Below, piece after piece: positions 5,064 through 58,051 of a stretch of 64,000 nt of DNA. Source of the stretch: Sphingomonas aliaeris. GTDB taxonomy: Bacteria > Pseudomonadota > Alphaproteobacteria > Sphingomonadales > Sphingomonadaceae. The stretch is taken from the NCBI RefSeq assembly GCF_016743815.1, contig NZ_CP061036.1:62001-126000 (forward strand), given 5' to 3'. Position 1 is the first letter of the stretch; every line of letters begins with the position of its first letter. The position numbers and the translations under genes are program-made. The notes below the pieces were generated by a model. It searched no databases, was not told where the DNA came from, and saw only the letters and a program-made list of their open reading frames with translations.

Positions 5064-7135
5064 TTATTCGGCTGCGACGAGCTCGTTCTCGTCGTTCACC
5101 GCGCCGGCATCCGCGTCGGTGTCGTCGGTGTAGTCGTTGACCTCCTCGCCGGACAGGTCGTGGTCGTCCGATCCGGTGCCGCTGTCGTCGTCACCGAGCC
5201 CGGTGTCTTCGACCAGCTCGGCCGTACCAACGGCGTCGAAGCGCATGGCGTCGGGCACCCATGCGAGCGCCGCCTCCTTGGTCTCCGCCTCGGTGATCGC
5301 CTCGCCGGCGAACAGCTTTTCGCAGCTCGTCGATATCTCGCCCTTCTTGGAGCCAAGATAGCGGGCCGCCAGAGTGGCCCCCCCACCTCGGTGAGGGTCG
5401 CCAGCAGCGTACCCTTCGAGACGCGGTCGAAGAAGTTCTCGCAGGTCGGCCGCCACCACTTGGCGACGTCGATCTCCAGGATGGAGGCGAGACGGGCGTG
5501 AAGCGGGTTGGTCGTGACCGCGCCGTATTCCTGCTTCGCCTCAAGCGAGTCGGCGACCATGATGGCGAGCCAGGCCGCCTTGGCATCGTCGGAAAGCGCG
5601 CGGAACGCCTCGAACCGCTCGACCGGCGAGGCCAGCTCGGTCCAGCTGGTATCCAGCCCTTCGCGCGCCTCGGCGATCGCGATCCGAGCCTGCGTGGGCG
5701 CGAACTCTGCCGGCATCTGCGGATCGTTCGGCCGGCCCGCAGTGATGGTCGTGCCGGAACGCCCGTAGTTGCGGGTGCGGTCGACCATGGCGAACAGCGC
5801 ATAGTCGAGCGCGAGCCCGGGATCGCCCAGGATCGAGGCGGCGAGGATGTCGCGTCGTTGGACCGCGAGCTCGTCGTGGAGGCGAGCGCTGAGCGGCTTT
5901 CCGCCCGGTGCGACGGCCTCGGGCGGCAGAGAGGTGGTGTCGCGGCTCGATCCTGCCGGCTTGCTGTCCGCCTCGTCGCCCGGCGCGCGCAGCGGCGCTT
6001 CGCTGTAGTAGGTGGTCTCGAGCACGAGCTTGCCGGTCCGGTCGAGCATCAGGAACGTGCCGACCTGCCCCTTGATCTCGTCGGGCAGCACCGGCGGCTT
6101 GTTGTGGAGGTTCTCATATTCCTGCTGGAGCTGCTCCGTCTCGGTTTCGAGCGCGCCGTAGGCGGCATCGTCGAGGCTCTCGTCGTTCATCTCTTCGGAG
6201 ATGGCCTCGATCCGCTCGGAGATCTCAAAAGCGCGGACTTCTTCGGCTTCGCTGAGCGGTGCGGCCGCCAGTGAAACGCGGTGGAGGTCCGCTGTTGCAC
6301 CATAAAGGTTGGTCGTGACGATCGGTCGGATCCAGGCGAGCCCCTGTTCCTCACCGAGACGCTTGGCCTCGGCTTCCATGATCGTGCCGGCGAGCGACTG
6401 CGCGATCTCGGGATCCGACCAGCGGTCGCCGTCCTCGTTGAACAGTTCGCGCTCGATGCGCCCGCCAGCGGCGACATAGGCGTCAGCGCCGACCAGGATC
6501 GCGACAGGGTCAGTCGCCTTCATGGTGTCGTTCGAGATGGCGCGGCGGATCTGGTCGGCGTTGATGTAGGCGCTGTGCCGATACTGGGCGAAGACGCGCT
6601 CCTGCTTCGCGCGGTCCTCGGTCGAACCATAGGCCTTCGCCATGTCCAGGGTGATCTCGCCGTTCGCCAGCGCCTCGAATACCGGTTCCGCGAGGTTGGC
6701 GAGCCGGAGGCGACCCTCGATAAAGCGGCGGGTCTGGCCGAAGCGCTTGGCAACAGCATCGATGTCGCCGTCCGATTGCAGGAAGTGCTGGAACGCGCGG
6801 CACTCCTCCGCCGGCGTCATCACCTCGCGCTGGAAGTTCTCGGTCAGCGAGAGCTCGCGCAGGTCGTTGTCGTCACCGACGACGATCTTGACGGGCACGT
6901 CGTAGTCGGCCGCGACGATTTCACCCGCCTCGGCGAGCATCATGGCTCCAAGGAAACGGCGTTCGCCGGCGATCACCTCGAACGAGCCGCGGGGTTTCGA
7001 CGGCGTGACCAGCAGGTTCTGGATGATGCCGCGCGCCCGGATGCTGGCGGCCATGGCGGGGATATTCTTGGGCTGCGTCGTGCGGACGTTCTTCTCGGAC
7101 TGCTTCAGCTTCGCGAGTTTGACGGTCTGGGTCAT
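5064..7135 (-). CDS. ParB-domain DNA-processing protein, frameshifted near its 3' end (about 690 aa if repaired)
   Basis: The N-terminus has a ParB/Spo0J nuclease-like domain with GERRF at 57-61 and ENFQR at 99-103, then a helix-turn-helix (about 120-150). The long C-terminal region is typical of the large ParB-domain proteins on alphaproteobacterial plasmids. The start has AGGAG 7 bases upstream. As given, the frame changes in a seven-base C run at 5378-5384 and continues in the wrong frame to 5096. One extra base restores a C-terminus that ends in an acidic tail at 5064. It is separate from the parA/ribbon-helix-helix pair, so it may act in DNA processing rather than classical partition. 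Confidence 0.85.
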
Positions 7136-7272
7136 TGCCAGTCTCCTGAGCGTGGTTGGTGTCCGACGAAATCCCTCGCCGAACACCCTCCCCGCACCCC
7201 CTTCCCTTCTGCTCCGTAGCTCGCGCAGCGACATGCACTGCGCCTTGTACCGCGCTTTGCACTGTGGCGGCG
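7136..7272 (-). promoter_or_regulatory. Intergenic leader with G-rich motif (copy B) and shared 22-bp operator-like site
   Basis: This gap between the strawberry-notch gene and the ParB-like gene holds a G-rich tract (7185-7207) with four G runs on the minus strand. It also holds a 22-bp element at 7246-7267 (GCGCTTTGCACTG core) that matches about 16 of 22 positions of the paired elements upstream of parA. Confidence 0.45.
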
Positions 7273-10200
7273 TCAGCCGTCCGATTGTGCCGTCAGGCGG
7301 GCGATCACCTCCGAGGCACCCTCGTTGGGTACAAAGAGCCTCGTCTTGTACGAGACGATTTCCGTGTAGCAGCCGATCGACTTCAGCCATGGCAGTTGCG
7401 CGGCGGGGGCACCGACAACCTCGATCCGAGGCTTGCCGTTGACCCGAGCGCGCTTCACCTCGCATGCGAATGGTCGCTTGAGGACGATCGAGCCGCCTTC
7501 CAGCGCGGCCTTCGTAATTTCGTCCGGGCTGAGGACCTGGGGTTCGTCCAGGCCGAGTTTGTTGAACAGCCCGTGAAGATCCCGGGGAAGACCATTCGGC
7601 CAAGCCAGGAACGGCCTTCTCCGTCTACGACGCGGTTCACCGCCAGGTGATCGCTCGGTAGCGCCGACCAGATCGGGAGGAGCAAGCCGGTGGCCAGCCG
7701 GATCGTCTCGGTGTCGACCTTGGTGCGGGCTTCCTCGGTCTCCACCTCCCAAGCCCTCTGGAAGGTCTCGCGTGAGCACTCCTCCCAAGCCGTCTCGTAC
7801 ATGTCGTCCATCGTTAGATATTCTCGACGCGTCGGCCGCATCAGCTCGACCCGTTCGACCGCGACACCTTCCTCGGTCATCCCCGACCTGGAGGCGGTCC
7901 GCAGCGCGACTTTCCCCGATCGGCCGTTGTGCAGGAACACGGCGGTGCCGTCGCTGTCGGCAATGCGCAGCACCAGGTCGAGCGACACCGGCTGGCGCCG
8001 TCGGGTCACCTCGATGGTAAGGAGGTGCGAGGTTGCACCCGTAACGGCATCGGTCCGCAGGATCGTGTCGTCGAGCACGGTCGCGGTGTCGACGGCCATC
8101 GTTTCGACACCGACGTCGAGCGTGCCGGCATCCCGGGCTGCCGCGACACGGGTTTCGACGAGCGCTAGGAACTCGTCGAAGATGAGGTTCTGCAAGCCGA
8201 TCGGAAGCGCGAGGAGGCGATTGAGCCAGCGCTGAATGGGTGGCAGGTCGTCCTTCAGGACGCCGTCCTTGTCTTGCAGTTCGAGCCCGGTCCGGTGCGT
8301 AAAGTCTACGAGGTTCGTGCTGGTGAGCTTGCCGGCGATCAAGAGGTGATACCAGGTGATCAGGGCCGCCTTGGCGTACTCGGATTCGAGATTGTCGGCC
8401 GGGTCGAAGAGGTTCTGGCCGCCTGTCTGGCGCTGCCCGCGCGTCAGCGCGCCCAAGCTGTCCAGACGCCGCGCGATCGTCGACGTGAACCGCAATTCGC
8501 CTTTGCAGTCCGTCGTGACGGGCCGGAAGAGCGGCGTACAGGCCTGATGGGTACGGTGTGTGCGGCCCAGCCCCTGGATAGCGCGATCGGCGCGCCAACC
8601 CGGCTCCAGCAACAGGTGTACCCGCTGTTCCTGGTTCTTGACGTCGAGGCTTGCGTGGTAGGAACGGCCGGTGCCTCCGGCGTCGCTGAACACGAGTACG
8701 CGCTTGGTCCCTGCCATGAAGGCAGCGGCATCCGCCTGGGTCGCGCGGGCCGAACGGGACTCCAGCCTTTGGGTGCCGTTCGCGGTGCTGACGAGCCGCT
8801 TGGTCCGCCCGGTAACCTCGGCGACGTTGTCGTGACCGAAATGCTCGAGCACGCCATCGAGCACGGCCGCTATCGGTGGGAGTGCGCAGAGCTGCTCGAT
8901 CAGATCGTCGCGGGCCGCTTCTGCTTCGGGATTGGTGACGGGCGTGCCACGTTCGTCGAACATCGGCCGGGACCGGATCTCACCGGTGTCGTCACGGTAC
9001 GGCGTCATCTGCTGAACGGGAAATGCACGCTGCAGATAGTCGATGATCGCTTCTCGCGGGGAAAGGTCGAGGTCGAGCTCGGCCCGTTCGTCCGGCGAGA
9101 GTTCGCCTAGGCGCCTGTCCAGGATCGCCTCGGCGGTGCTGACCAATTGGAGTACGACGGACTGACCGGCCTCCAGGTGCTGGCGCACTGCAGCGATCAC
9201 GGTCGGCAGCTTGCACGATAGAAGCACCGCACCGAAGAAACGCTGTTTGCAGCTCTCAAACCGCGAGCGCGCGGCCGCCTTGGCACCGGAGTTCAGCGTG
9301 TCGCCCTTCAAAGGATCCACTACGCCAGTGAGCTCCAGGGCTTTCTCCATGTTGCGGTGGATAATGCCCCAGGCGTCAGCGTAGGCGTCGTACACCTCCA
9401 CCTGCTTAGGGGTCAGTTCATGTCGCAGGATGTCGTACTCGACGCCGGCGAAGCTGAGCGCGCGGGCGGTGTAGAGGCCGGTGGCCTTGAGGTCGCGGGC
9501 GACGAGCTCCATCGCGGCGATCCCGCCCTGCCGGATCTCGGTGATGAACGCCTCGCGGTTAGCGAACGACGTCTCGGGACCCCACAGGCCGAGCCGCACG
9601 GCATAAGCGAGGTTATTCACCTCGGAGGCGCCGGTCGCGGACGCGTATAGGACACGCGCCCCGGGCAAGCGGTTCTGCAGCACGACGCCGGCAATCCCCT
9701 GCTGGGAGCCCTTCTTGGCGATCATGCTTCCCTCGCCGCCCGCAACGCCGCCCATCTCGTGGGCTTCGTCCCATGCGATCACGCCCTCGAATTCGTCGCC
9801 AGCCCAAGCGATGATCTGCTCGAGCCGGCTCGCATCGCCCCGTGTGGAGCGCAGAGTCGGGTAGGTGACGAAGAGAACACCTTCGCTCATCGCGATCGGC
9901 TCGTCGATCTTCCAGCGGGAGAGCGGCTGGACATCGGCTGCGAGGCCGCCAAGCGCGGTCCAGTCACGGATCGCGTCGGCATGCAGGGCCTCGTTCTTCG
10001 ACACCCAGATGGCGCGGCGACGCCCGGCAAGCCAGCTGTCGAGGATCACGGCCGCGACCTGGCGGCCTTTGCCCGCGCCGGTGCCGTCTCCCAAGAAGAA
10101 GCCCTTGCGATACCGGCTGCCGTTCTCGTCAATGATGAGGCCGACCCCTTCGGGATCGGGACGGAAACGGCCGGGAATGAACTGCGTCCACGCGTGACCG

Positions 10201-11513
10201 GCGTACACCACGGTTTCCAGCTGCGAGGAGGACAGGAGGCGGTCCTTGACCGTTCGCTCCGGCAACGCCGGGACGTGGGTGGGGATCGGCGCGGGGATCG
10301 AGCCCATAGCGACCGATTCTACGAGTGCGGTCGGGTGCTCGCCGGCACTGTCGAAGACGATGCGGCTCGGCCGGTATGGCAGATAGACGCCCGTCTGCTC
10401 CGCAAGCGGTGCCGGAGTTTCCAGGACCTGGTACGTCACGGGCGCGACCTCGTTCCGGGCGCGCGCGCGAAAGACGCGAGGCGCGGCTGCGGGCTTCGAT
10501 CGGACGCTTCGGAAGAGGGACACGGCCCCTCCCCTCGCAGCGGCAGGCTTCTCGACCTCGTCCGAAAACTCCAGGCGTTCGGGTACGCTGATCTCGGGGA
10601 GGAGTTCGCGCACGGTCCCTCGCTGGATCGTCACGTTGTTGCTCTGGCCGACCGCTTTGTCGAGAACGTAGAGGCGGACCGCGACGCCGGTGCCGTGCTT
10701 GCCGTATGCGTCGGTGAGGCGGATCGAGGTCCTGACCGTCACCTGCTCCAGCGTGGTCGTCCAAATCTGGCCCATGCGCGCGGAGTTCGTGAACCAGTCG
10801 GGCATGATCGCCGCCACGCGGCCGTTCGGGCGGACGCGCCGGATCGCTGCCTGGAGATGTCGAACCGCGGCAAGCGAGTCCGTACCGTGCCCGATCGAGC
10901 GCGAGAATGGCGGGTTCATGATGATCAGTGTCGGGCGGGTCGACGCTGCCATCGCGCTGCCGATCGTTGCGCCGTCATGAGCCGAGATTGGCGCTTCTGG
11001 AAAGACCGCCTGCAACCGGGCGCGCCGCGCAGGGTCGATCTCGTTGAGCTGGAGGGCCGTGACCGTGGGAAGCTGGGCCACCAGCAAACCGTTGCCAGCG
11101 CTCGGCTCGAGGACGATGTCGGAGGGCATGGGAGCCGCCAGGATCAGGGCGACAGCAGCTAGGTCGAGGGGTGTCGAGAACTGTTGCCACTCGATCTGCT
11201 CCTCGCTTCTCACGGTCTGCGTTGGAAGCCGATCGAGCAGCACTGCAGCTTGCAGCACATCATCATGTGCAACGTGCAAGCGATCTGTACTGCGGTTTCG
11301 CATTGCAAGTGCAAGTGCAAGCTCAAGTACCTCGAAGCTCTCGCGCTGGGTCCAGCGGCCGTCGGCGTCGGAACCGCCGAAGGCGGTCGTCATCGCCTCG
11401 TTGAGCAAGGCGCGCGTGATCTTGTCCTGGCCCTCAAGGCTGGGAACGAGCCGCATCGCCGCAGCGGTGCAACATGACGCACGATCGCGTGCGGCGTCGA
11501 ACAGGTCGTTCAT
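7273..11513 (-). CDS. Strawberry-notch-class methyltransferase-helicase, frameshifted near its 3' end (about 1413 aa if repaired)
   Basis: The N-terminal half carries an adenine-type methyltransferase signature (LEPSAGNG at 135-142, NPPFS at 200-204). The middle carries an SF2 helicase core: GDGTGAGKGR at 475-484 and DEAH at 582-585, then the strawberry-notch helicase C domain. Related proteins include phage DarB-type antirestriction factors. The start (MNDLFDAARD) has CAGGAG 6 bases upstream. At CCCGGGG (7581-7587) the frame breaks; one added base restores a C-terminus ending at 7273, otherwise the protein reads out of frame to 7455. It lies upstream of the ParB-like and ardC genes, forming a DNA-processing and protection block. 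Confidence 0.85.
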
Positions 11514-11561
11514 GGGGATCTCCTGGCTCTGTGGCTGCACGACGCAGCTCACCAGACCAGT

Positions 11562-11583
11562 CCCCCTCCCCTCTATGCTCCGG
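11562..11583 (-). repeat. G-rich motif, copy C
   Basis: On the minus strand it reads GGAGCATAGAGGGGAGGGGG. The TAG in it is the stop codon of the primase gene, so the motif overlaps the end of one gene and the leader of the next (strawberry-notch). Confidence 0.45.
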
Positions 11584-12409
11584 TTCTGACGTCGGCCCAG
11601 TCGCCGAATTGCCTCGGAGGCGGCATTCGCCGGAGATCCAAGCCACGCGGACGGTAAGCTGCCCACGCTTTCCGACGGGCGCGTCTTCCCTCGGGATCGT
11701 TGTCTTCGGCGAAGATCAACGTCCTGACTGAGTCCGGGATGTGGACGCGGTCAAGCCTCGCGGCGCCAAGCGTCGCCCAGCACGGGATGCCGTTATGCTG
11801 GGTGAACATAGCTGCCGTCTCGAAACCCTCAGCAAGCGCCAGCGTGTCCGTCACGCGCATGCCCTGCCAGCTCGCGCCAGCCGGGGTCCCCAGCATCACC
11901 TTCTCGAGATAGCCTCCGTGTTCGAGGTCGAGGAAGACCCGCTGAACGGCGCGCAGGGCTAGACCTTCTCTGGCGGCGACTATCAGCGCAGGGAGGAACC
12001 GGGTGGTAGGCTTCGGTCCCCAAGGGCATCGGGGGTGAAACCGGAGGTCATCGAACCCGTCGCGGATCCCGCGCTGCCTCAAGTACACCTCCGCAGGCGT
12101 GCTGGCGACCGGGACGGCCTCGCTCCAAAGCCGCTCGACATTCGGCTGTCGGCCGTGCGGTGCCGCCTTTGGCGGCTCGTAACGCTGGCCGGGCCTCAGC
12201 CGGGAGATCTCTCTCAGCACGTCGTCCGCGTCGCAGCCTGCGAAGCAGTGAACGAGGATCCCTTCATGGCCCTGCCGGACCGAGAGGCTCGGCGTCTTGT
12301 CCTGGTGGGCCGGGCAGCGGCACATCGCGAGGTAGCCGCGCCAGGTGCCGCCTAGGGCGCCTACGATATCGACCATCTGCTGCGCGGGTTTAAGGGCGAC
12401 TAGAGTCAT
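11573..12409 (-). CDS. CHC2 zinc-finger / Toprim primase-like protein, 278 aa
   Basis: The zinc-binding ligands are visible at C30, C32, H35, C55 and C59 (CRCPAHQDKTPSLSV then VHCFAGC). They are followed by a Toprim domain with LAEGFETA (acidic motif) and FAEDNDPEG near the C-terminus. Such proteins prime plasmid DNA after conjugation or assist replication. The start is set by AAAGGA about 7 bases upstream; the frame opens 24 bases earlier without a better site. The gene follows the parA/ribbon-helix-helix pair on the same strand. Confidence 0.85.
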   Translation of the reverse strand: MTLVALKPAQQMVDIVGALGGTWRGYLAMCRCPAHQDKTPSLSVRQGHEGILVHCFAGCDADDVLREISRLRPGQRYEPPKAAPHGRQPNVERLWSEAVPVASTPAEVYLRQRGIRDGFDDLRFHPRCPWGPKPTTRFLPALIVAAREGLALRAVQRVFLDLEHGGYLEKVMLGTPAGASWQGMRVTDTLALAEGFETAAMFTQHNGIPCWATLGAARLDRVHIPDSVRTLIFAEDNDPEGRRARRKAWAAYRPRGLDLRRMPPPRQFGDWADVRTGA

Positions 12410-12436
12410 GGTGCATCCTTTCTCATGATGCACTCG

Positions 12437-12460
12437 CCCCCTTCCCTCCTACTCCTTAGC
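12437..12460 (-). repeat. G-rich motif, copy D
   Basis: On the minus strand GGAGTAGGAGGGAAGGGGG. It contains the TAG stop of the ribbon-helix-helix gene and precedes the primase gene. It is closest to copy B (CCCCCTTCCCT shared on the plus strand). Confidence 0.45.
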
Positions 12461-12763
12461 GCTTTCAGCCAGCGCCAGAAGTCGGTCGAGCGCGTCCGGG
12501 TAGGAGAGCTGCTCGCGGTCGCAATAGTCGTTGAAGCGGGTGTAGGTGGTGGGGGTGATCCTCATGGTCACCGACTTGCTCTTTGTCTCGCGCACCCTGC
12601 GACGACGCGCCGTTGGCGCGGACTGGTATTCGTCGGGCAACTCCATCGGGGCAGCGCTGGGGCGAGGGGCGGGAGTAGGGCGCATTGCTGAAAGATCGAG
12701 ACCGCTAGCAGCGGGCTCACGAGCGGCGCGGCCGAACTTCTTGGGTTCTGGTGCTTCGCTCAT
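12449..12763 (-). CDS. Ribbon-helix-helix partition partner, 104 aa
   Basis: The N-terminal 60 residues are Pro/Ala rich and disordered. The C-terminal part (about 62-100: SKSVTMRITPTTYTRFNDYC and onward) fits a ribbon-helix-helix DNA-binding fold. It overlaps the 3' end of parA by 4 bases (ATGA). This is the arrangement of type Ib partition cassettes, where a small RHH protein replaces ParB as centromere-binding protein and repressor. The role is inferred from context. Confidence 0.75.
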   Translation of the reverse strand: MSEAPEPKKFGRAAREPAASGLDLSAMRPTPAPRPSAAPMELPDEYQSAPTARRRRVRETKSKSVTMRITPTTYTRFNDYCDREQLSYPDALDRLLALAESAKE

Positions 12764-13437
12764 GCTTTGACCTCGGATGTGATGATGGCAACGATCTCCC
12801 GAAGGAGGCTTTGGACATTCTGGCGAGCGCGCTCGGTCCGCGCGAGGTTATGGGCGTCCAGTTCCTCCAACGTCATTCGGTAGAGAAACATCGCGCGATA
12901 AGCGTCGCCCAGGAACAACTCTGATGAGAAGACCGGTGCCGCCTGGCGCGTCTGCTCCATGATCTCGCGCTCGGCTCGCGAGGTGATGGCGGTCGTGCGC
13001 TGGGTGAACAGGATGCGGTGGGGGAGGGGCCTCTGCCGAGCACGCTCGATGAACTCGAGCCGGTCAAGGAACTCGATCGATCGCTCGAGGTCCGCGGCCG
13101 ACGCACGCTGAGGGATGATGAGCATGTTCGCTTGCAGCGTGGCGTACATCACCTGCTCATTGATTGCCCCTTTCACGTCAAGGATCACGAAGGGGTATTC
13201 CTGCGAGGCGTCGTAAACGGCTGTCTCCAGCTGCTTCTGCGTCATCTTGTGGCCGTCTTCGACCACGATCCCATCCTTCAGCTTCCAGTCCTCGAACCAG
13301 CGATAGAGGGAGAGCTGGGGATCCGTGTCGATGACGTAGACCGTCTGCCCCGCGGACCTGATTTCCGAGGCTAGCGCGAGGGCGGTAGTGGACTTGCCAA
13401 CTCCGCCTTTGATGGATCCCACGAGAATGACAGCCAT
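12760..13437 (-). CDS. parA: ParA-family partition ATPase, 225 aa
   Basis: The deviant Walker A motif KGGVGKST is at 10-17, DTDPQ at 37-41, and the VILDVKG Walker B-like strand near 85-90. The length fits the short ParA class that lacks an N-terminal helix-turn-helix. The ribosome site AAGGG lies just upstream of the ATG. The 170-base region ahead of it carries paired operator- or centromere-like repeats, suggesting autoregulation together with the RHH partner. Confidence 0.9.
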   Translation of the reverse strand: MAVILVGSIKGGVGKSTTALALASEIRSAGQTVYVIDTDPQLSLYRWFEDWKLKDGIVVEDGHKMTQKQLETAVYDASQEYPFVILDVKGAINEQVMYATLQANMLIIPQRASAADLERSIEFLDRLEFIERARQRPLPHRILFTQRTTAITSRAEREIMEQTRQAAPVFSSELFLGDAYRAMFLYRMTLEELDAHNLARTERARQNVQSLLREIVAIITSEVKA

Positions 13438-13608
13438 GACGGTCCCTTTGTACTGCTAACCAGCATTACAGTGCAATGCGCGTTACATGCGTCTTTGCAT
13501 GTGATTGGCGAAGCGAGCTACACCTTGCAAGCACAATCGCACTACACATTGACTTGCGCCGCGCTGTGTAATGCGCTCTGCACTGCAACGGTGTAAAAAT
13601 ATTCCACG
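13438..13608. promoter_or_regulatory. parA upstream region with inverted 22-bp repeats (candidate centromere/operator)
   Basis: Two 22-bp elements, 13466-13487 and 13567-13588 in opposite orientation, agree at about 18 of 22 positions (core CAGTGCA then GCGC and TTACA). Position 13463-13479 is also a near-palindrome (GCATT...AATGC). Between them are further short TTGCA/GCAAT repeats. A possible minus-strand promoter (TTGCAC, 17 bases, GTACAA) overlaps the parA-proximal element. Confidence 0.6.
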
Positions 13609-13644
13609 TTGCCAGGCCTGAAGGCGTGTGGTCCTTTGCTCGCT

Positions 13645-14574
13645 ATGGCGAAGAGGATGATCCTGGGTGCGAAGACGCTGATCGGCGTCGCTGCCGGCGC
13701 AGCGGCGATCACCAGCGCTGCCGCTCAGCAGGTCGAGCTAGTGCCGTTCAGAAGCGTCGGTGACGGTGTCGTGATCGAGGTGGGCAAGAAGCCCGCTGCG
13801 AACGAAATCCCGGCTGCTCTTCCGAGCGAGGCGACGGCGCTCTCGGCGGAGATCCTTGCGCAGGACTTCGCGGGCATGGCGCCGCCTCCGTCGTTCGCGC
13901 CGGCGATCGCCATGGCACCGGTCGAGCGGTCGTCCATCCCAGTGCCCCTGTGGATGCAGACCGGGAAGGTGACGACATCGGGTCTCGCGGCCGCGGCTGC
14001 GGTTGCACCGTATCTCTACAGCCCAGCCCCATGTTCGATTTCACCGTACCGTCCTCGGGGGGACCTGCCCATGTACCTTGAGCAGCGGCGCGCACGCTAT
14101 TACCCGCTGATCTCGGCCGTCGCCTGCGAGGCTGGCGTTCCCGTCGGGCTGTTCGATGCGCTCGTTGCGCAGGAGAGCCAGTACAATCCGCAGATCGTCT
14201 CGCCTAAGGGTGCGGTGGGTCTTACGCAGCTGATGCCGGGCACCGCGGCTTACCTGGGCGTGTTCAACTCGCGCGATCCGCTGCAGAACCTGAGGGGAGG
14301 GGCCCGCTACCTTCGCGAGCATTTGGACGAGTTCAAGAGGGTGGACTTGGCGCTCGCGGCCTACAACGCAGGACCGGGCCGGGTTCGTCTCAACGGCCGT
14401 ATCCCACCGTTCCGCGAGACGATCGGCTACGTCTCGGCGATCACGCGGGGCTGGAGTGCAAGCGCGTTTAAAACCGCGACGATTCAGACCGCCGCGCTGT
14501 CGACCAACCTGCCGACATTCCGCGGTGCCCAGCTATTCAACTACACGTCGACGAGCGTCGCGAACCCAAGGTAA
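13645..14574 (+). CDS. Lytic transglycosylase (VirB1/SLT type), 309 aa
   Basis: An N-terminal hydrophobic segment (about 6-27) ending in Ala-rich cleavage-like sequence suggests export. The C-terminal SLT domain has the catalytic glutamate E177 in AQESQYNP, then SPKGAVGLTQLMPGT and AAYNAGPGRV. These enzymes open peptidoglycan locally for conjugation machinery. No type IV secretion genes occur in this window, so its partners must lie elsewhere. The start is uncertain: the ATG at 13645 has a poor ribosome site, and a TTG at 13609 is also in frame. The 3' end overlaps the convergent small membrane-protein gene by 34 bases. Confidence 0.85.
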   Translation: MAKRMILGAKTLIGVAAGAAAITSAAAQQVELVPFRSVGDGVVIEVGKKPAANEIPAALPSEATALSAEILAQDFAGMAPPPSFAPAIAMAPVERSSIPVPLWMQTGKVTTSGLAAAAAVAPYLYSPAPCSISPYRPRGDLPMYLEQRRARYYPLISAVACEAGVPVGLFDALVAQESQYNPQIVSPKGAVGLTQLMPGTAAYLGVFNSRDPLQNLRGGARYLREHLDEFKRVDLALAAYNAGPGRVRLNGRIPPFRETIGYVSAITRGWSASAFKTATIQTAALSTNLPTFRGAQLFNYTSTSVANPR

Positions 14575-14816
14575 TTGGCGTAGAGCATGGCGATCGCGAG
14601 TATCGCCGGCACGCCGAGCAGGTAGTTGAGTTGCCAACGAACCCAAACGCGCGGAGCCGCGAGAACCTTGTCCATCACCGTGGTCGTGGACAGCGTCCTG
14701 CTTCCCGAGCGATAGTCGTGGACCGTCTTGATCACCGCGATGATCGCGCACAACGCGACAAGCAGTCCAACTGCGGCGTAAAGCGAGATCCACGCGTCGA
14801 GTTTCGCTTGCGGCAT
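14541..14816 (-). CDS. Small membrane protein, 91 aa
   Basis: Two hydrophobic segments (about 10-30 and 62-85) flank a basic, Ser/Thr-rich loop. The family is not recognised. Its 3' end overlaps the end of the lytic transglycosylase gene on the other strand. The hydrophobic pattern supports it being real. Confidence 0.55.
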   Translation of the reverse strand: MPQAKLDAWISLYAAVGLLVALCAIIAVIKTVHDYRSGSRTLSTTTVMDKVLAAPRVWVRWQLNYLLGVPAILAIAMLYANYLGFATLVDV

Positions 14817-14883
14817 AAAGGCTTCTTACAGCGAAGAGACTTCCGACGCCTTAACGGAGCGCTTTGGAGATTAGTTGCCAGGG

Positions 14884-14910
14884 CAGCTAAGAGGGCAGGG
14901 GAGGGGCTAA
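14884..14910 (+). repeat. G-rich motif, copy E
   Basis: GCTAAGAGGGCAGGGGAGGGG followed by CTAAGC, just past the repA stop codon and in the opposite orientation to copies A-D. It shares the GCTAAG start seen in copy D. The similarity is partial. Confidence 0.35.
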
Positions 14911-15800
14911 GCTGCAGCGTGCATTGGGGCTGCAACAGACTTTTGCTTCGGTCGCATCCTCACGCTGGTGGTCACCGACTTTCGCCGGCGTCCGATCGAG
15001 TCGGTATATTCTCCGGTTACCGTCTCGACCAGATCGACGTCATACTCCGGGAGTCGGTTCTCGCCCTCGATGGTCTTCACAAGTTGTTTCAGCCGTTTCA
15101 TCGGTCCCATCGAGCCGATCTTTCGGTGCAGATCCTCCAGCGTGATCTCGATTGGCCCGTTCTCACAATAACAGTGAGCGATTTCGTACATCCGTCGCTC
15201 AATAGCGCCGAGTCGAAAGTAGTCGTGATGATAATGGTAGATACGCTGATCTCGCTTGATCGCACGATACAGCCAATTGCACGGGCGAACCCGGACGTAC
15301 CGGAGCAGTTCGTCCCCGTTGGCCATCTTCTCGTATTCGACTTGAGCTTCAGAAAGCCAAGAGAACCAGCCCCGATCGATCTTCGATCCGGTCTCGATAT
15401 TCGTTTTGATCTGCGTACCCTGGAGACGCTCTAATGCCTCGGCAAACCGCCGATAATCCCGGATCGACGGACGCTCCACGCCCGTAATACGAAAGAAGTC
15501 ATGTGCCGCAAACGTGACGTCCTCGTCGGCGACCTGCCCATCGGCGATTGCCTGCGCCACCAGCGAGGCGACGTAGAGCAGGATTTCCTTGTCCCACATC
15601 GTCGCGACACCGGTCGCACTCGGGCGGATCTGGATCGTGACCTGATCATGCCGGTACTCGATCGGCTCAAGGTGGGCATTCTTCGATAAGACGAAGAAAG
15701 GAAAATCCATGATGCTCCGCTCACCACGGACCTTGCCATGGAGAGGGCTGTCCATGTCGAACAGCGAAATTTGCCGCGGTAGGGCGGGGGACTTAGCCAT
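14907..15800 (-). CDS. repA: RepA replication initiator (RPA family), 297 aa
   Basis: This protein matches the RPA-type plasmid initiator. It has LFDMDSPLHGKVRGERSIMDFPFFVLSK at the N-terminus, a winged-helix-like core with VTFAAHDFFRITG (about 92-105), and YFRLGAIERRMYEIAHCYC (about 193-211) in the second DNA-binding domain. The upstream gap to repC contains two inverted iterons, consistent with RepA binding and autoregulation. The gene is complete. Its neighbour repC is a second, unrelated initiator. Confidence 0.9.
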   Translation of the reverse strand: MAKSPALPRQISLFDMDSPLHGKVRGERSIMDFPFFVLSKNAHLEPIEYRHDQVTIQIRPSATGVATMWDKEILLYVASLVAQAIADGQVADEDVTFAAHDFFRITGVERPSIRDYRRFAEALERLQGTQIKTNIETGSKIDRGWFSWLSEAQVEYEKMANGDELLRYVRVRPCNWLYRAIKRDQRIYHYHHDYFRLGAIERRMYEIAHCYCENGPIEITLEDLHRKIGSMGPMKRLKQLVKTIEGENRLPEYDVDLVETVTGEYTDSIGRRRKSVTTSVRMRPKQKSVAAPMHAAA

Positions 15801-15980: not shown

Positions 15981-15984
15981 TCCC

Positions 15985-21470: not shown

Positions 21471-22097
21471 TCAGCGCGCCTGAGGCTTGCTGCGCGCCGT
21501 TGCGACAAGCCGGCGTAGCGCCGGCAGGTCGACCGCGCCGGCCACCACTTGCGAGCCGACGATCAGCGCCGGTGTTCCGTTGAACCCGATCGCTTGAGCG
21601 ATGGCGTTGGTGCGTGCGAGAAGCGCATCAATTTCTGCGCCGCGCGTCTTCAGATCGCGTTGCAGACGTGGCCAGTCCACCCTGGCTTTCGCGGCAGCGG
21701 CCCTGATCCCGGCACTGTCGAGCCGTGCCGGCGAGGTCAGCAACGCCTCATTAAAAGCGGCATGTTTGCCCTGCCACTGGCTTGCGACTGCAGCCCGTGC
21801 GGCTTCCCGGGATGCAGGGCCAAAGATCGGCCAGTCACGATAAACGATCCGTACCTTCGGATCGGCCGCGACAAGCGCGTTCAGCACCGGCTCCATTCGC
21901 CGGCAATAGGGGCAATTATAGTCGGAAAATTCAACGACGGTGACGTCATAGGCTTGGCCGACACGTTTCGGAGCAACGAGATCGTCTACGACCGCCTTGC
22001 GCGACAGATCGGGTTGCTGTGCGACTGATGGCATTGTCGGCACGGCGACGGCGAGCAACGCCAGAAAGCTGCGAGAGAGAAGGTTGCGTCGGTTCAT
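21471..22097 (-). CDS. DsbA-family thioredoxin-fold protein, 208 aa
   Basis: A signal peptide (about 1-26, ending SVAQQ) is followed by a thioredoxin fold with CPYC at 62-65 (FSDYNCPYCRRMEP) and the cis-Pro segment FNGTPALIVG. Its start overlaps the end of the TlpA-like gene. The shared KDWPIFGP/RDWPIFGP segment shows that this and the following gene are paralogues. Confidence 0.87.
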   Translation of the reverse strand: MNRRNLLSRSFLALLAVAVPTMPSVAQQPDLSRKAVVDDLVAPKRVGQAYDVTVVEFSDYNCPYCRRMEPVLNALVAADPKVRIVYRDWPIFGPASREAARAAVASQWQGKHAAFNEALLTSPARLDSAGIRAAAAKARVDWPRLQRDLKTRGAEIDALLARTNAIAQAIGFNGTPALIVGSQVVAGAVDLPALRRLVATARSKPQAR

Positions 22098-22901
22098 CGG
22101 TGTTTCCTTGCCATATCGATCCCATCAGCGAGGGCCGCGCGTGACAGCTCGCCGAGCTGAAGCTGCACGATCGTGCCGTCCGCAGCGACGAAGGCGGTTG
22201 CGGGATAACCAGCCACCTCGAAGGCTTGGGAAAGCCCACGGGCAGGATCGAGCGCGACATTGCTCACGCCGACGCCTTCACGGGTAAGAAACCCGGTCAC
22301 GATTGCTGGAGCTTCACCCTGATCTGCGAGCAGGATCGGCACATCCCGATTGCGCGTTGCCGCGGCGTCGAGCATCGGCAGCTCGCGCTGGCACGGCCCG
22401 CACCATGTCGCCCATAGATTGACCACGAAGGGGCGGCCTCGGAAACGTGCAAGCGGGAGAAGAGCGCCGGACGGCGTCGTCAACGTTAAATGATAGGGGA
22501 AGGGGCCATATGTCACGGGCGGGACAAGCACCTGGAGCGTGAACCACAGGCCACCCGCTATCGCCAATGCCCCCAGCCCACCGCCAAGGCGCGTGTTCGG
22601 CCAAGCTGGAAGGCTAGCATCGCGGCAGCACCAATGATGCCGGCGATGGGGGAGAAGCCCCCTGCCAGACTGCGAAAATGGATAGGGGAGCTTCGACGTA
22701 GCTCGCCCAATGCGCCGCGACATAGCTGATCCGCGCCGCCACCAGTCCAGCGACGATGGCACTGGTTGCGACCGTGGACACTCGCGGGAAGCGGAACCGC
22801 CCTGCCAAGGTTGTCAGCCCCAGGAACACGACGATGCATAGCACCGCCAGTCCGCGGTCGACCGCCATCATGAGCGGTCCGATGGCAATCGCGCTTCCCA
22901 T
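22094..22901 (-). pseudogene. Membrane-anchored TlpA-like thioredoxin, reading frame broken twice (about 269 aa if repaired)
   Basis: Three overlapping frames together make one protein. It has an N-terminal membrane domain with several hydrophobic helices (weakly like the Lgt-type domain found in some TlpA fusions), then a TlpA thioredoxin domain with WATWCGPCQREL. Breaks are at the C run 22658-22662 and near 22581-22592; each is repaired by one added base. The start is coupled to the TauE/SafE stop, and the end overlaps the DsbA-like gene by 4 bases. Because operon spacing is perfect, I suspect sequence error rather than loss. Confidence 0.75.
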
Positions 22902-32828: not shown

Positions 32829-32886
32829 TTGACAATCGGCGTAGCGGTGGCTGAATAGGAAGCATGGGGACTGCGATCTCCCCATG
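32829..32886 (+). promoter_or_regulatory. Promoter and hairpin upstream of the chromate genes
   Basis: TTGACA (32829), 17 bases, TGAATA (32852) form a plausible sigma-70 promoter. It is followed by an inverted repeat (CATGGGGA at 32863 and TCCCCATG at 32879) that could be an operator for a chromate-responsive regulator. Confidence 0.5.
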
Positions 32887-32936
32887 AGGCGTCAGCCAAA
32901 GAATCGCGTCCAGCTCGATTTTGCTAAGGACGCGTC

Positions 32937-33773
32937 ATGCCTGCGCTGAACACAATAAGTCCCGATAAGCTTGCCCGTTTGGTTGCCCTTCCTGGATCGC
33001 CGTCGCTCGTCGACTTGCGTAGCGACACAAGCATAGCGATCCCCGGATCGGTATTCCGTGCACAATCTGATCCGAGTAGCTGGCGCCCCGTTGGTGGGAA
33101 CAGTGTTGTCACGATCGACGCCGAAGGGACGGGCGGGGCAGTCGCCGCAGCCGCAATCCTGCGCAGCGAAGGCGTTTCGGCCGAGGCGCTGGAGGGTGGC
33201 TTCGCTGCATGGCTCGCCGGGGGCCTGCCAACCGTATCGCTCACGCACTTGCCGCCGCGTCATACAGACGGACGGACCTGGTGGGTGACACGGGCACGGC
33301 CGAAGGTAGATCGGATTGCCTGTCCCTGGCTGATCCGGCGTTTCATTGATTCGGAAGCGCGCTTCCTGTTCGTTGCCCCGTCCGAGGTGCTGACCGTTGC
33401 TGCTCAACAGCAGGCAGAGCCGTTCGACGTTTCCGACGACCGCGTGATGTGGAGTCACCGCGGCGAATTCTGCACGTTCGACGTGATGGTCGATGCCTTT
33501 GGGCTGAGTGGCGATGAGGCACTGACGCGGCTCGCTGCGATCGTCCGGGGCGCCGACACCGATCGGCTCGATGTCGCACCGGAAGCGGCCGGTCTCCTCG
33601 CCATGTCGCTAGGCCTGTCCCGCATATACGACGACGATCATGCACAGCTCGAGGCGGGCATGATCGTCTACGACGCGCTCTACCGCTGGAGCCGCGACGC
33701 GCGCGGTGAGAAGCACAACTGGACCTCGCACCAGCCCGGACGAGTCCCGGCGCACAAGGAGGTATCGGCATGA
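32937..33773 (+). CDS. chrB: ChrB-like chromate resistance protein with rhodanese-like N-terminus, 278 aa
   Basis: Residues about 10-105 look like a rhodanese domain (LVDLRSDTSIAIPGSVFRAQ; EALEGGFAAWLAGGLP), but the catalytic-cysteine position reads TIDAEG with no cysteine. Residues about 115-265 match the ChrB C-terminal domain (WWVTRARPKVDRIACPWLIRRFIDSEARFLFV; HRGEFCTFDVM). ChrB proteins regulate or assist ChrA. It overlaps chrA by 4 bases. Confidence 0.85.
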   Translation: MPALNTISPDKLARLVALPGSPSLVDLRSDTSIAIPGSVFRAQSDPSSWRPVGGNSVVTIDAEGTGGAVAAAAILRSEGVSAEALEGGFAAWLAGGLPTVSLTHLPPRHTDGRTWWVTRARPKVDRIACPWLIRRFIDSEARFLFVAPSEVLTVAAQQQAEPFDVSDDRVMWSHRGEFCTFDVMVDAFGLSGDEALTRLAAIVRGADTDRLDVAPEAAGLLAMSLGLSRIYDDDHAQLEAGMIVYDALYRWSRDARGEKHNWTSHQPGRVPAHKEVSA

Positions 33774-39785: not shown

Positions 39786-40941
39786 CCCTCGGCCCCCTCG
39801 TTCTTCTCAAGCTCGGCCTTGAGCAGGAAGGCGTTGATCGTGGCGATGGGCGTGCCGGCGGCGAGGCCGTCGGCAATGGCGACCATGCCGCCTGACCGGC
39901 TGCCGATCCGGATCGGCTGCGCCTTGAAGCCGGTGCGCGTGCGAACGAACACGACGGTTTGACTCCCGAGCGTCTGTACCGCGTCCTGGGGCACCATCAC
40001 GCCGCCCTTGGTCGCGCCACCACTGGCGAGGATGCGCGCCTGAACGAGCTGACCTGGGGACAGCGTGCTGGTCCCTGCGGTTGGTGTCACGATCACGGTC
40101 GCGGTCCGCGACTGTGGATCGACCACGCCGGTGCTGGCGCGAACGCGGCCCGTGATTGTCCGGCCGTCGCTGGTGGTCAGCTCAACCCGGTCGCCCGTGC
40201 GAATGCGTGGAGCGTCGGCGGGGGGACGCTCGCGGTGATTTGAAGTCGCCTGGGATCTGCGACGCGGAACAGCTCGGTTTCGGCCGCGACGAACTGGCCG
40301 AGATTAGCACCGGCGCTTGTCACGCGCCCTGACACGGGGCTGACGACCGCAACGGAGCGACCGTCACCGGATACCCGCGTCGCGCCGGCCGCAGCGCTGG
40401 CGCGACGGGCGTCGGCCTGTGCGACAGCAAGGGTCGCCTGCGCGGTCTCGAAGTCGGCGCGAGGGCTGACGCCCTGCGCAAGCAGCGTGCGCTCGCGCGC
40501 GAGCTGGCGCTGAGCGAGCGTCACCCGCGCCGATGCGGCCGAGCGATCGGCAGCGATCTGCGAGGCATCGCGGCTCTCGACCAAGGCGAGCGTCTGCCCG
40601 GCACGAACGGGATCGCCGATCCTCGAAAAGATGCGCGTGACGGTGCCGGGCGCCCGGGCAGTCAGGACCGCCTCGGCATCAGGCGTGGAGTCCACTGTGG
40701 CCGAAGCGAGGATCGCGGCATCCAGCTCGCCGGACGCGGCGGGTGCGACGGTGATCTGCGACGTTGCGACCGCCTGCGGCGTCATAGCGACCGCGTTTCC
40801 GGGCTTTGCAGGCTCTGCGGCCTGCACGGGCGCGGAAGGGGGCGCGGGTGATTGGGTGAGGCGCGCAGCGCCAAAGCCGAGCGCGGCAGCGGCGACCAGC
40901 CCGATGGCAGCCCCGGCATAGAGACGATTTCTATCGGTCAT
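39782..40941 (-). pseudogene. czcB: CzcB-like periplasmic adaptor, reading frame broken (about 386 aa if repaired)
   Basis: The first 250 residues have an N-terminal membrane anchor (AAIGLVAAAALGFGAARL), a biotinyl-lipoyl-like half, a coiled-coil hairpin (SQIAADRSAASARVTLAQRQLARER) and the beta-barrel start. The frame then breaks at the G run 40219-40224. One added base restores VPPADAPRIRTGDRVELTT and the remainder to 39782. Because both flanking genes overlap it by 4 bases in normal operon fashion, sequence error is likely. Confidence 0.85.
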
Positions 40942-47714: not shown

Positions 47715-48465
47715 GCGACTCCCTGTCTGGAATTACGCCCCCGGCTTTGCGGCGCGGCCGTCTCGGCCAGCGCATGAAAAGAAGGATCGCGCCCGACACC
47801 GCGAAGACGAGACCGCCTGCGGCAAAGGCGTTGAGCCACGGCGTGTTGAACCGCTCGTGCTCGGTCCAATCCATGATGTGAAGGCCCCAGAAGAAGTCGT
47901 ACAGCCGCCACGTTCCTGTCCTGACCGACGTGAGACGTCCCGTGTCGGCTGCTACATAGATGCGGGTGGCGTCATCGTCGGCGAACGTGGCCCGCCAGGC
48001 CGGCAACGCCCCGCGATACTCGGTGCTGGCTCGTTCGACCCGTTCGATGGTGGGCGCGGGTACACCACTCCCTCGATACGCTTTCTGAGCGATCGTCCCG
48101 GCCACCGTGGCATCCAATGGTGGGATCGGCGCAGCCGTACGAGCGTCCAGCAGACGGATGCGACCATCCACAAGCTGTGCCTCAACGATCGGCCGCCCGA
48201 GCAGCATGCGGTGCTGAAGCTGGCGGACCGGCGCTCCTGCCGACGCAAGCAAGGCAGGTAACGGTGCGAAGCCTTGGGTGCTCGACAGCGCCGGCTCGGC
48301 GTTCCGTTCGATCCGGTGATCGCCATGAACCGTGTCGATCGGGAGCAGGCTCATCACAAGCCCGCTGGTGAACCAGACGATCGCCTGCGCGCCGATCAGG
48401 AGAGCAAGCCAGCGGTGAATCTTGCTCGCGCCAAGGTGGAGGCGGAGCCGCGGGCTCAGAACCAG
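47711..48465 (-). CDS. PepSY-domain membrane protein, frameshifted at its C-terminus
   Basis: IHRWLALLIGAQAIVWFTSGLVMSLLPID is the first membrane segment of PepSY-associated proteins. A periplasmic PepSY-like region follows, then YDFFWGLHIMDWTEHERFNTPWLNAFAAGGLVFAVSGAILLFMRWPRRPRR. As given, the frame reads on to 47461 inside the next gene. One base added at the C run 47738-47742 ends it at 47711, overlapping the DUF305 start. The N-terminus is unresolved: no ATG/GTG/TTG lies between the copB stop and the conserved region (a CTG at 48459 would overlap that stop; a GTG at 48555 lies within copB). Confidence 0.7.
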
Positions 48466-49669
48466 GTCCTCACGCCGGCGACGAAACTGAAGCCGCCCGT
48501 ATCGTCGCCCCGTGCCCGCGAGAAGCGCGCGGTGTCGCCGAACTGCCGTTCCCACGATACGCCGATATAGGGCGCGAACTCACGGCGGCCCTCGTAGCGA
48601 AGCCGCAAACCGGCCTCCAAATCCGTCAGCCCGGAGCCGATCCCGGTCTCCCGCACGTCCTGGGCCGCGAAGTTGGCCTCCACCCTGGGCTGGAGAACGA
48701 AGTAGTTGGTGATGCGCTGGTCGTAATAGCCCTCGGCGCGGGCGAGCACGTCCCCCTTGTCGGAGAGGAACAGCGCGCCCTCGATCTCGAACTGATAGGG
48801 GGCCAAGCCCTCGATCCCGATCGTCGCATAGGTGCGCGACGGGTTTGGCTTGAAGTCGTAGCGGACGCCGGCCTGAAGGTTCCAATAGGGATCGAGGGCG
48901 TGGCTGTAGAGCGCCTGCACCTCGGCGCTTTCCAGCGACTTGCCGAAGCTGCCTTCACCCTCCGACTTCAACCACAGTCGGTTGATGTCGCCTCCGATCC
49001 AAGCCTCGCCATCCCAGCGGTAGCCATCGCTTCCCTTGCGGGCCTGATACTCCGCGAGATTGAAGAGCACCTGGTAGTAGGTCATCCCGCCATGCTCGCG
49101 CCGCAGATCGTTCTCGCGCGAGCTGGCCATGGCATCCGCCCCCCAGAAGCGATCGGCGAGATGATCGCCGGACGGCGCGGGAGCGGGCTTGTTGCCGGGA
49201 AGAAGGTCGGTCCCGACCTTGGCGCCTGCCTGGCTACCCTCCATCGCCATACCGGGCATCGCGCTCATGTCATGCCCGGCATGCGGATCCTGCCCCGCTG
49301 CTGCCGGGGAGCCCATATCGGGCATAGCGGACATGTCGTGGCCGGCGTGCGGGTCCTGGGCGGGCGCGGCCTGCTGCCCGCCCATGTTCATGCCCTGCAT
49401 CCCGCTCATGTCGTGACCGGCGTGCGGATCGGCCGCCTGAGCCGGCGCGGTCGACGCACGACGAGGGCCGCGCTGCGAACGGGCGCCTTCCGCTTGGCCG
49501 CGGGCTTCGCCGCTGCTTTGCGCGCCGGCTTGGGGGCCGCTTTGGCTGCGGGTTTCGCCGGCATGGTCATCCCCGGCATGTTGTGCATGGAATGATCCAT
49601 GCTCTGCCCGAACACGGGGCTGGCGACGACTGCCGAGGCGAGGCCGGCGAGAAGGAGCGACCGGCTCAC
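48456..49669 (-). pseudogene. copB: CopB copper-resistance outer-membrane protein, reading frame broken near the N-terminus
   Basis: The C-terminal barrel is intact (YYQVLFNLAEYQARKGSDGYRWDGEAWIGGDINRLWLKSEGEGSFG ... AGVRTWF) and is preceded by Met/His repeats (DPHAGHDMSAMPDMG type). The signal peptide and Lys/Ala-rich segment (VSRSLLLAGLASAVVASPVFGQ) lie in a different frame; the break is near 49465-49490 and one added base joins them. The GTG start overlaps the copA stop (GTGA). CopB with CopA forms the pco/cop system. Confidence 0.82.
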
Positions 49670-52987: not shown

Positions 52988-53106
52988 GTTTTCCACTCCG
53001 CCCCTCTAACACTGGTTACGCAGCGCTGCCCATCATCCCTCATCGGTCGCGTGAGGGGTGCGCGACTGTGCCGCGTAGAATGGACAGAACATCACGGAGT
53101 AGCCTC

Positions 53107-53478: not shown

Positions 53479-53480
53479 GG

Positions 53481-54410: not shown

Positions 54411-54413
54411 GGG

Positions 54414-54436
54414 GCGGGCGGCCGAATGCCGCCCGC
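54414..54436. terminator. Hairpin between copD and the copper-storage gene
   Basis: GCGGGCGGC and GCCGCCCGC pair perfectly around 5 bases, directly after the copD stop and before the convergent gene's stop. Confidence 0.7.
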
Positions 54437-54444
54437 CTCGCCGT

Positions 54445-54777: not shown

Positions 54778-54933
54778 CGGTCATTCTCCGTCTTATCCCC
54801 GCCCTAAAGGAGATACGCGCCAGATCGCACTTTCCCTCGCCTTCTTGGCCCTTTTCGAGGGGCAAAGCCTTCGGCCGCGTAGCTCATATTAGGCGGCTTG
54901 GCCGCACGGTCGCGGGTTAAGCTCGACCTGGCC

Positions 54934-54964
54934 TTGACCTTGACACGGTGTCAGACCCTACATG
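54934..54964 (+). promoter_or_regulatory. CueR-type promoter/operator of the copper ATPase
   Basis: TTGACC (54934), a 19-base spacer containing the perfect palindrome TGACACGGTGTCA (54941-54953), then TACATG. The spacing is that of MerR-family activated promoters; the CueR-like gene is downstream in the same operon. Confidence 0.8.
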
Positions 54965-54988
54965 CCTTCGGGTCGAAGGAGTTACGCC

Positions 54989-57454
54989 ATGAACGATCCT
55001 CATTCTCATGCCCATACTGGGGGTTGCGGCTGCTCAGCAAAGTCAGCCGAGCCGGCTGCCGAGCCCGCTTCATGCTGCTCTGGGGGCTCTACCGCGTCAG
55101 TGCCAGTCGAACAGGCCGGCAAAATGGGTGGCTGCTGTTCGGGACCCAAGGTGCCCGGCGACGTGACCAAGGTAACGGACCCGGTGTGCGGCATGACGGT
55201 CGATCCAGCGAAAACGGCGCACCATGCCGAGCACGCCGGCCATGAATATCATTTTTGCAGCGCCGGGTGCCGGAACAAGTTCTTGGCTGATCCGAACGCC
55301 TATCTCGGCGATAAGCCAAAACCTGAGCCAACAGCGACGCCAGGGGCGATGTGGACGTGCCCCATGCACCCGCAAGTCCGCCAGGAAGGGCCGGGGACGT
55401 GCCCTATCTGCGGCATGGCGCTCGAGCCCGAAGAACCGTCGCTCGACGACACACCCAACCCCGAGCTGGTCGATTTCACACGCCGGCTTTGGGTGGCCGG
55501 CGCACTGACGATCCCGCTCCTCGTCGTTTCGATGTTTGCCGAGATGCTCGGCATCAATGTCGTCAGCCCCACGGTCTCGCCGTGGGTCCAACTCGCGCTA
55601 ACCGCACCGATCGTGCTGTGGGCGGGCTGGCCGTTTTTCAAGCGGGGGTGGACCTCGATCCGCACCCGCCATCTCAATATGTTCACGCTGATTGCGATCG
55701 GGGTCGGTGCCGCCTTCCTCTACAGCGTGGTCGCGACGCTCACGCCGGGCATCTTCCCCGCGACGTTCCGAATGCACGGGGGCATGGTCCCGGTCTATTA
55801 CGAGGCTGCCGGTGTCGTGGTGACGTTGGTGCTGCTCGGGCAAGTGCTCGAGCTGCGCGCCAGGGCGGCAACCGGGCGCGCGATCCGAGCCCTCCTGGAT
55901 CTCGCTCCCAAGACAGCTCGGCGGTTGCGGACTGACGGCTCCGAGGAAGAAGTCGGCCTTGCCGACGTCGCCGCCGGTGATCGATTGCGGGTCCGTCCCG
56001 GCGAAGCGATCCCGGTCGATGGCGTGGTGGTCGAAGGCCGCTCGTCGGTCGATGAATCCATGCTCACCGGCGAACCTGCGCCGGTCCTCAAGGAAGTCGA
56101 GGCGGCCGTCACGGGGGGGACCGTCAACGGCACGGGTAGCCTGGTTTTGGAAGCCCGCGCCATCGGCCCGGATACGATGCTGGCGCGGATCGTCCGTATG
56201 GTCGCCGAAGCGCAGCGCAGCCGCGCCCCGATTCAGGCGGTCGCCGATCGGGTGTCGGGATGGTTCGTGCCGCTGGTCGTGCTGATCTCGGTGGTGACGT
56301 TCGTGGTATGGTCGCTGGTCGGCCCTGAGCCGCGCATGGGCCATGCCCTGCTCAACGCCATCGCCGTGCTGGTCATCGCCTGTCCGTGCGCGCTCGGGCT
56401 CGCCACGCCTATGTCGATCATGGTCGGCACTGGGCGCGGCGCGACAGCCGGGGTGCTGGTCAAGAATGCGGAAGCCTTACAGGGGCTCGAGAAGGTCGAT
56501 ACGCTCGTCATCGACAAGACGGGCACGCTCACGGAAGGCAAGCCTAAGCTGGTCGCGGTCGAGACGGTCGGCGCAGTCGCGGAAAACGACATGCTCGCGC
56601 TTGCCGCGGCCGTCGAAGGGCAATCCGAACACCCGCTCGCTCACGCGATCATCGTTGCCGCCAAAGAGCGGGCATTGCAGCTCGGCACGGTAGCGGACTT
56701 CGCCTCGCAAACCGGCCTGGGTGTCAGCGCCACGGTCGACGGCCGCTCGGTCGTCATCGGCAACGCCGCGCAAATGAGCCGGATCGGCGCTGATCCCAAG
56801 CCGGTCGATGCCGCGGCTGATCGTCATCGTAGCGAAGGCGCGGGTGTCATCCTTGTCGCGATCGATGGGGCGCTCGCTGGCTTGCTGGCGGTCGCCGACC
56901 CGGTGCGGGCATCGGCACGCGACGCCATTGCCGCACTTCGCAAAGAGGGCTTGCGCGTCGTCATGCTCACCGGCGACAATCGTGGGACCGCGGATGCGGT
57001 CGCGCGCGCGGTAGGCGGTCTCGATGACGTGCGCGCCGATCTGCGGCCGGAAGACAAAGCGCGCATCATAGGCGAGCTGAAGGCAAGCGGCGCCAAGGTC
57101 GCGATGGCCGGCGACGGCATCAATGACGCCCCGGCGCTTGCCGCTGCGGACGTGGGCCTGGCGATGGGCACGGGAACGGACGTGGCGATCGAAAGCGCCG
57201 GCATGACGCTCACGCGCGGCGATCTGTCGGCGATCGTGCGGGCGCGCAAGCTCGCCCACGCAACGATGCGCAATATCCGCCAGAACCTGTTCTTCTCGTT
57301 CCTGTTCAACGGCATCGGCGTGCCGGTCGCGGCGGGGGTGCTTTATCCCGTCGCCGGCATTCTGCTCTCGCCGATGCTAGCCGGTGCGGCGATGGCGCTC
57401 TCGTCTTTCACTGTCGTTCTGAACGCGCTGCGGCTCAACGCGGTGAAGTTGTGA
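54989..57454 (+). CDS. Copper-translocating P1B-type ATPase, 821 aa
   Basis: The N-terminus has Cys clusters (GGCGC, SCCSGG, GGCCSG), a YHS domain (about 64-107) and a heavy-metal-binding segment [23 protein letters not shown] (122-143). The pump core shows CPC at 465-467, the phosphorylation site DKTGT with D509, TGEP and GDGIND. The start has AAGGAG 7 bases upstream. It exports Cu(I) from the cytoplasm and is coupled (GTGA overlap) to the regulator gene. Confidence 0.95.
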
Positions 57455-57834
57455 ACATCGGAACGGCGTCGGACGCCAGCGGCGTCTCTCAGCGCATGAT
57501 CCGCCACTATGAGAAAATCGGCCTCGTGCCTGCGCCGCCTCGGCGCGGGAGCTACCGGGATTATTCAGAGGCCGATGTTCACCGGCTGCGCTTCATTGCC
57601 AATGCGCGCGATCTGGGGTTCCCGATCGAGGAGATCCGCACACTCCTCGGCCTCTGGTCGGATCGCAGCCGTTCGAGCAGCGAAGTAAAGATGCTCGCCC
57701 AGGCGCGCGCCGATGAACTTGGGCGTAAGGCGGCTACGCTCGAAGCTATGCGATCGACGCTGCTGGACCTGGTGAACCGCTGCCACGGAGATGATCGACC
57801 GGACTGCCCGATCCTTCGCCGTATGGAAGCATAG
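57451..57834 (+). CDS. cueR: CueR-like MerR-family copper regulator, 127 aa
   Basis: The helix-turn-helix ([25 protein letters not shown]) and the C-terminal metal loop ([14 protein letters not shown], two cysteines 8 apart) fit CueR. Serines replace the third MerR cysteine (RSSSEVK), as in monovalent-metal sensors. The GTG start overlaps the ATPase stop. It should activate the 54934 promoter and so its own operon. Confidence 0.9.
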
Positions 57835-57842
57835 GGTCGCGC

Positions 57843-58051
57843 CTACTCGCTGGCGCGACGAGCAACGCCGTCCCGCCACGGGCGTTGCGAAAAGCGAAGC
57901 GTGATCCGCAAAGTCGCCACACGACCGCGGATTGTGTCCATCGTGCGACCCAACTCGCGGACAATCTGGCTAATGGTCTGCTTCCCAGCCACACGCCGCC
58001 GAAGTTCGGCGTCGTCCTCCTCGTCCAAGGCGCGCCGCGCCGGGTGGTCAC
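57843..58051 (-). pseudogene. Small SANT/helix-turn-helix-like protein, reading frame broken
   Basis: One added base near 58022 joins MTTRRGAPWT to EEDDAELRRRVAGKQTISQIVRELGRTMDTIRGRVATLRI. This is a recognisable small DNA-binding family (RGAPWTxEED...LGRTxxxIRGR). As given, the frame is split. The ribosome site before the GTG is weak. A perfect 8-bp hairpin (GTCGCGCC/GGCGCGAC, 57836-57859) lies at its 3' end against the convergent regulator gene. Confidence 0.6.

Follow-up and report, generated by a model that had tools for sequence, protein, structure and literature searches.

Assemblies made from long reads carry a described class of residual error. In its available text, the Kastor report (PMC12007338) states that most long-read errors are short indels at homopolymers, and that losses depend on the runs more closely than insertions do. 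The Homopolish paper (PMC8011154), as far as its excerpted text goes, describes an excess of false pseudogenes in nanopore assemblies polished with Racon and Medaka, and an excerpt of a further study (PMC10228379) cites the NCBI note 'many frameshifted proteins' to illustrate problematic sequencing or assembly. The genome considered here resembles the cases presented in these excerpts. As in the Kastor and Homopolish cases, its genes are fragmented by short indels, mainly at homopolymers, and, as in the assemblies noted by NCBI, frameshifted proteins are widespread. It differs from the example in the Kastor excerpt in the composition of the runs, since A/T runs dominate there and G/C runs here.

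The window, i.e., the whole stretch of 64,000 bases that was analysed, comprises bases 62001-126000 of the plasmid contig C2 (203,171 bases), which belongs to a genome of 4,262,007 bases in three contigs (G000); the 60 stretches taken from this genome contain no N. Copper, czc-type, and other metal genes are located in the window beside plasmid-maintenance genes, and among the best plasmid matches listed for it the majority are sphingomonads. Sphingomonas faeni ALB2 shares 96% identity with window positions 10018-14273. Positions 32861-32939 hold a chrB-a RNA (RF03078), a cis-regulatory RNA family, with a score of 82 bits (gathering score 43.9). The first-pass annotation had claimed that eight one-base losses interrupt otherwise intact genes of this window and had attributed them to homopolymer shortening in the reads. 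The analysis described below indicates that the breaks are almost certainly single-base length errors left in the assembly.

One-base losses in the window

The proteins of relatives, in which the genes have one open frame, were compared with the window by tblastn and by a purpose-written frame-aware aligner, the latter being supplied with the last 330 residues of the ParB-like protein and the last 270 of the strawberry-notch protein. The frame-aware alignment gave a net shift of -1 in every relative tried, namely 3 of 3 for the ParB-like gene, for both breaks of the TlpA-like gene, and for copB, and 2 of 2 for the strawberry-notch gene and czcB. The same six breaks were found by tblastn, in the ParB-like gene as a frame switch. 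No in-frame stops are listed in these alignments, and the tested genes are otherwise intact over the aligned length. A wider scan with 581 reference ORFs of named loci, covering 47,965 of the 64,000 window bases, recovered these six shifts of the large genes. The ParB-like break appears there in 17 reference ORFs (3 of them antisense), each TlpA-like break in 3, and the czcB break in 2; the copB and strawberry-notch breaks were recovered as well, the latter also in nine references whose offset is larger and of the same class. Shifts seen in a single reference, five of +-1 (near 10610, 10995, 11525, 11995, and 20812) and one of +8 (31803), were not counted.

For the small DNA-binding gene, frame translations inspected by eye show one open frame in the relatives L119 and L120 and two frames in the window. 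Seven of the eight claimed losses are thereby confirmed, six by frame-aware alignment and one by frame translations, all as a net -1; the exception is the PepSY gene. There the frame-aware aligner detects no shift with any of the three relatives, since the claimed site belongs to a C-terminal tail that, as an alignment of the tails shows, varies among them. The PepSY frame continues for 328 aa to its stop, into the ORF of the next gene, compared with 242, 242, and 212 aa in the relatives; a lost base is therefore plausible on the basis of gene architecture, although unproven by homology. The sites are collected in Table 1.

Table 1. Confirmed and claimed frame breaks in the window
Feature	Position	Strand	Context
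ParB-like gene break (net -1)	5372..5384	-	seven-C run; gene aligned span about 5067-7135
Strawberry-notch gene break (net -1)	7581..7590	-	four-G run; gene aligned span about 7282-11513
TlpA-like gene, first break (net -1)	22659..22662	-	five-C run; gene 22097-22901
TlpA-like gene, second break (net -1)	22573..22588	-	beside five-C run
czcB break (net -1)	40219..40225	-	six-G run; gene 39788-40941
PepSY gene, claimed break near end	47738..47742	-	variable tail; gene aligned span 47719-48447
copB break (net -1)	49460..49493	-	interval without long run; gene 48459-49669
Small DNA-binding gene, break near start (net -1)	58021..58031	-	without long run

A nucleotide comparison is offered by L130, a lichen metagenome contig from a Sphingomonas MAG, which is 95.7% identical to window positions 6345-15568. 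The two differ by 395 mismatches and four indels, and the window is the shorter sequence at all four. One indel marks the strawberry-notch site, where L130 is one base longer, and a second, of three bases, falls within that gene as well. The other two each involve a single base at an ORF end or next to one: at 12433 another relative, L166, exceeds the window in length too, and at 13640 L166 is the shorter.

The statement that most breaks lie in G or C runs is borne out, as 5 of the 7 confirmed sites lie at runs of 4-7 G or C. Taken site by site, the longest run measures 7, 4, 5, 5, 6, 3, and 2 bases. These lengths add up to 32, against a mean of 18.0 for coding intervals drawn at random, and the sum was reached in 0 of 20,000 such draws, with the reservation that the window sites were perhaps picked by the first-pass annotation partly for their runs, which does not apply to the seven chromosomal sites. 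When both sets are taken together (14 sites, some intervals being set by the analyst from profile ends), the longest-run sum is 59 against a mean of 36.0, again reached in 0 of 20,000 draws. Runs of 4 or 5 bases occur at 5 of the 7 chromosomal sites (rpoB, mutS, a PaoC-like gene, a WS/DGAT-like gene, and glnD), and a long run is absent at copB, the small DNA-binding gene, cobT, and Cof. Overall, long G/C runs show a weak deficit in the genome relative to the same-genus control genome G008 (183:1146 vs. 84:405, P 0.07).

Broken genes and repeated copies on the chromosome

The genome was searched for eight long gene families. Four of them, rpoB, valS, mutS, and mutL, are each divided between two frames, the halves matching adjoining parts of one family each, and the other four, rpoC, the main dnaE, secA, and ileS, are unbroken. 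The rpoB gene occupies one frame in 7 of 8 other same-genus genomes, the eighth copy being cut by a contig end, and has a net shift of -1 against 4 of 5 relatives' ORFs; the reference L199 was dropped as a wrong ORF (139 of 443 identical). The valS gene is a single frame in 7 of 7 other same-genus genomes. Both rpoB and valS are indispensable to the cell. Since these essential genes are split, the breaks are unlikely to exist in the living cell, and this constitutes the strongest evidence on the origin of the shifts. The apparent two-frame splits of mutS (L205 1471-4076) and mutL (L207 649-2562) are located on the chromosome and come from the search of this genome.

The halves of ten chromosomal shifts were also named. 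In five cases, glnD, cobT, and three further genes, both halves belong to one family. Among the other five, one has a single domain spanning both halves, one has different domains, two have a name for one half only, and one has no match. Compared with nine loci from eight other genomes, cobT shows a shift of +1.

Copies of one sequence within the same genome provide a further comparison. The 16S rRNA family, searched for as such a multi-copy test, has no match in G000, which is given as 99.88% complete, and the 16S rRNA stretch may be absent from the sequence. Its place was taken by a 1.1-kb insertion sequence, present on the chromosome in at least nine copies (L019 8486-9660 and L099-L106). 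A G run within it is 5 bases long in five of the nine copies and 6 in four, and the copies also differ in a few further one-base indels. An open frame of 333 aa is retained in three copies, all with a run of 5. The length of the run goes against the kinship of the copies: between L019 and L099 there are 3 mismatches, but the runs are 6 and 5 bases long, and L103 and L104, with one substitution in columns 6-1086 by manual count, also have 6 and 5. The run of 6 is likely to contain an extra base introduced by error. Together with the +1 shift of cobT, this extra G implies that the errors go in both directions.

Density and direction of the shifts

The density of frame shifts was estimated with a codon-position model that had the long ORFs of the genome itself as its training set, uses no relative, and requires a gain of 4 or more; G008 was read with its own codon model as the control. 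The scan gave 34 shifts in 720 kb of the chromosome (20 of the loss class, 14 of the gain class), 12 in all of C2 (203 kb; 9 and 3), 3 in all of the third contig, C3 (142 kb; 1 and 2), and 2 in 400 kb of G008. The densities of the chromosome (P 3.6e-5) and of C2 (P 9.2e-5) differ from that of G008, C2 does not differ from the chromosome (P 0.48), and C3 alone, with 3 shifts in 142 kb, shows no significant difference from G008 (P 0.12). When single-base changes were placed at random in G008, the model detected 37 of 100 losses and 48 of 99 gains. After correction for detection, a rough estimate for the chromosome is about 10 shifts per 100 kb, or some 400 genome-wide, a density with which eight breaks in a 64-kb window are in keeping.

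Two other counts were made. A stricter scan, now superseded, had counted 7 shifts for the window, 12 for the remainder of C2, 7 for C3, 27 for 480 kb of the chromosome, and 3 for 82.9 kb of plasmid records. An early protein comparison, drawing on 400 kb of G008, was dropped for rates, as little content was common and the control was noisy: over 35.6 kb of the chromosome, 38.5 kb of G008, and 37.4 kb of plasmid records it gave 8, 4, and 3 switches of any size, of which 2, 1, and 1, respectively, were exact +-1 switches, the one in G008 being in cobT, which was read with the broken ORF of G000.

All of the 7 confirmed window shifts are losses, compared with 20 losses to 14 gains on the chromosome (Fisher P 0.07), although the chromosomal classes are rough. 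The gain class absorbs close pairs of losses, so that the two TlpA-like losses come out as one gain, and the PepSY site is also labelled as a gain. The one-sided bias that the first-pass annotation had pointed out holds within the window and does not extend to the genome, where cobT has a +1 shift and 4 of 9 insertion-sequence copies have an extra G. For the same reason homopolymer shortening is too narrow a description.

Origin of the breaks

The breaks are spread over the genome regardless of the importance of the genes, as seen both from the codon-model scan and from the splits of rpoB, valS, mutS, and mutL. An explanation by real decay, in which metal-resistance and maintenance genes of the plasmid are no longer useful and have accumulated frameshifts, accounts for frame breaks that are truly present in the given sequence. 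Decay of this kind is nevertheless very improbable, because the density is equal on the chromosome and the plasmid, the essential genes are not spared, and the tested genes are otherwise intact over the aligned length, with no in-frame stops listed in the frame-aware alignments. The preference of the first-pass annotation for read error over gene decay is upheld by the equal densities, the breaks in rpoB and valS, and the concentration at homopolymers. The loss of mismatch repair typically shows itself in slips within runs, and the apparently split mutS and mutL would by themselves suggest a mutator lineage in which MutS and MutL no longer work and the one-base slips are true mutations. No mutator is known to survive with broken rpoB and valS, and with errors as dense as estimated, any gene of 2-3 kb would commonly be broken. 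A real mutator is accordingly given hardly any credence, and the splits of mutS and mutL are best read as two more errors. It is similarly very doubtful that a natural mutator carries hundreds of real G/C-run slips and tolerates them, even in rpoB and valS, through the polymerase or the ribosome slipping back. The most remote of the alternatives is programmed frameshifting or transcriptional slippage, by which a correct sequence would still give rise to the proteins. Slippage is possible in principle at the several sites that are G/C runs; against it, several other sites have no run, the longest run has 7 bases, and the shift is not conserved, the aligned relatives having the confirmed genes in one frame.

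Assembly error is favoured over these alternatives because the breaks occur genome-wide, in rpoB and valS, and at runs, and because the insertion-sequence copies disagree with one another. The errors would arise mostly through the undercounting of G/C runs, and sometimes through overcounts or single bases elsewhere. Judged from the assembled sequence, their source is probably a long-read assembly without polishing by accurate reads, and we infer that the living strain most likely has these genes intact. The interpretation of the first-pass annotation is supported as right in substance, with the amendments that the errors are genome-wide, that extra bases are included among them, and that the PepSY loss is unproven.

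Users of this genome would falsely list genes of metal resistance, plasmid maintenance, DNA repair, and even RNA polymerase as lost. The combination of breaks in essential genes with disagreeing repeat copies constitutes a test that requires no reads and is usable on other assemblies. Claims of gene loss, of pseudogenes, or of a mutator phenotype that are derived from this assembly should await accurate reads.
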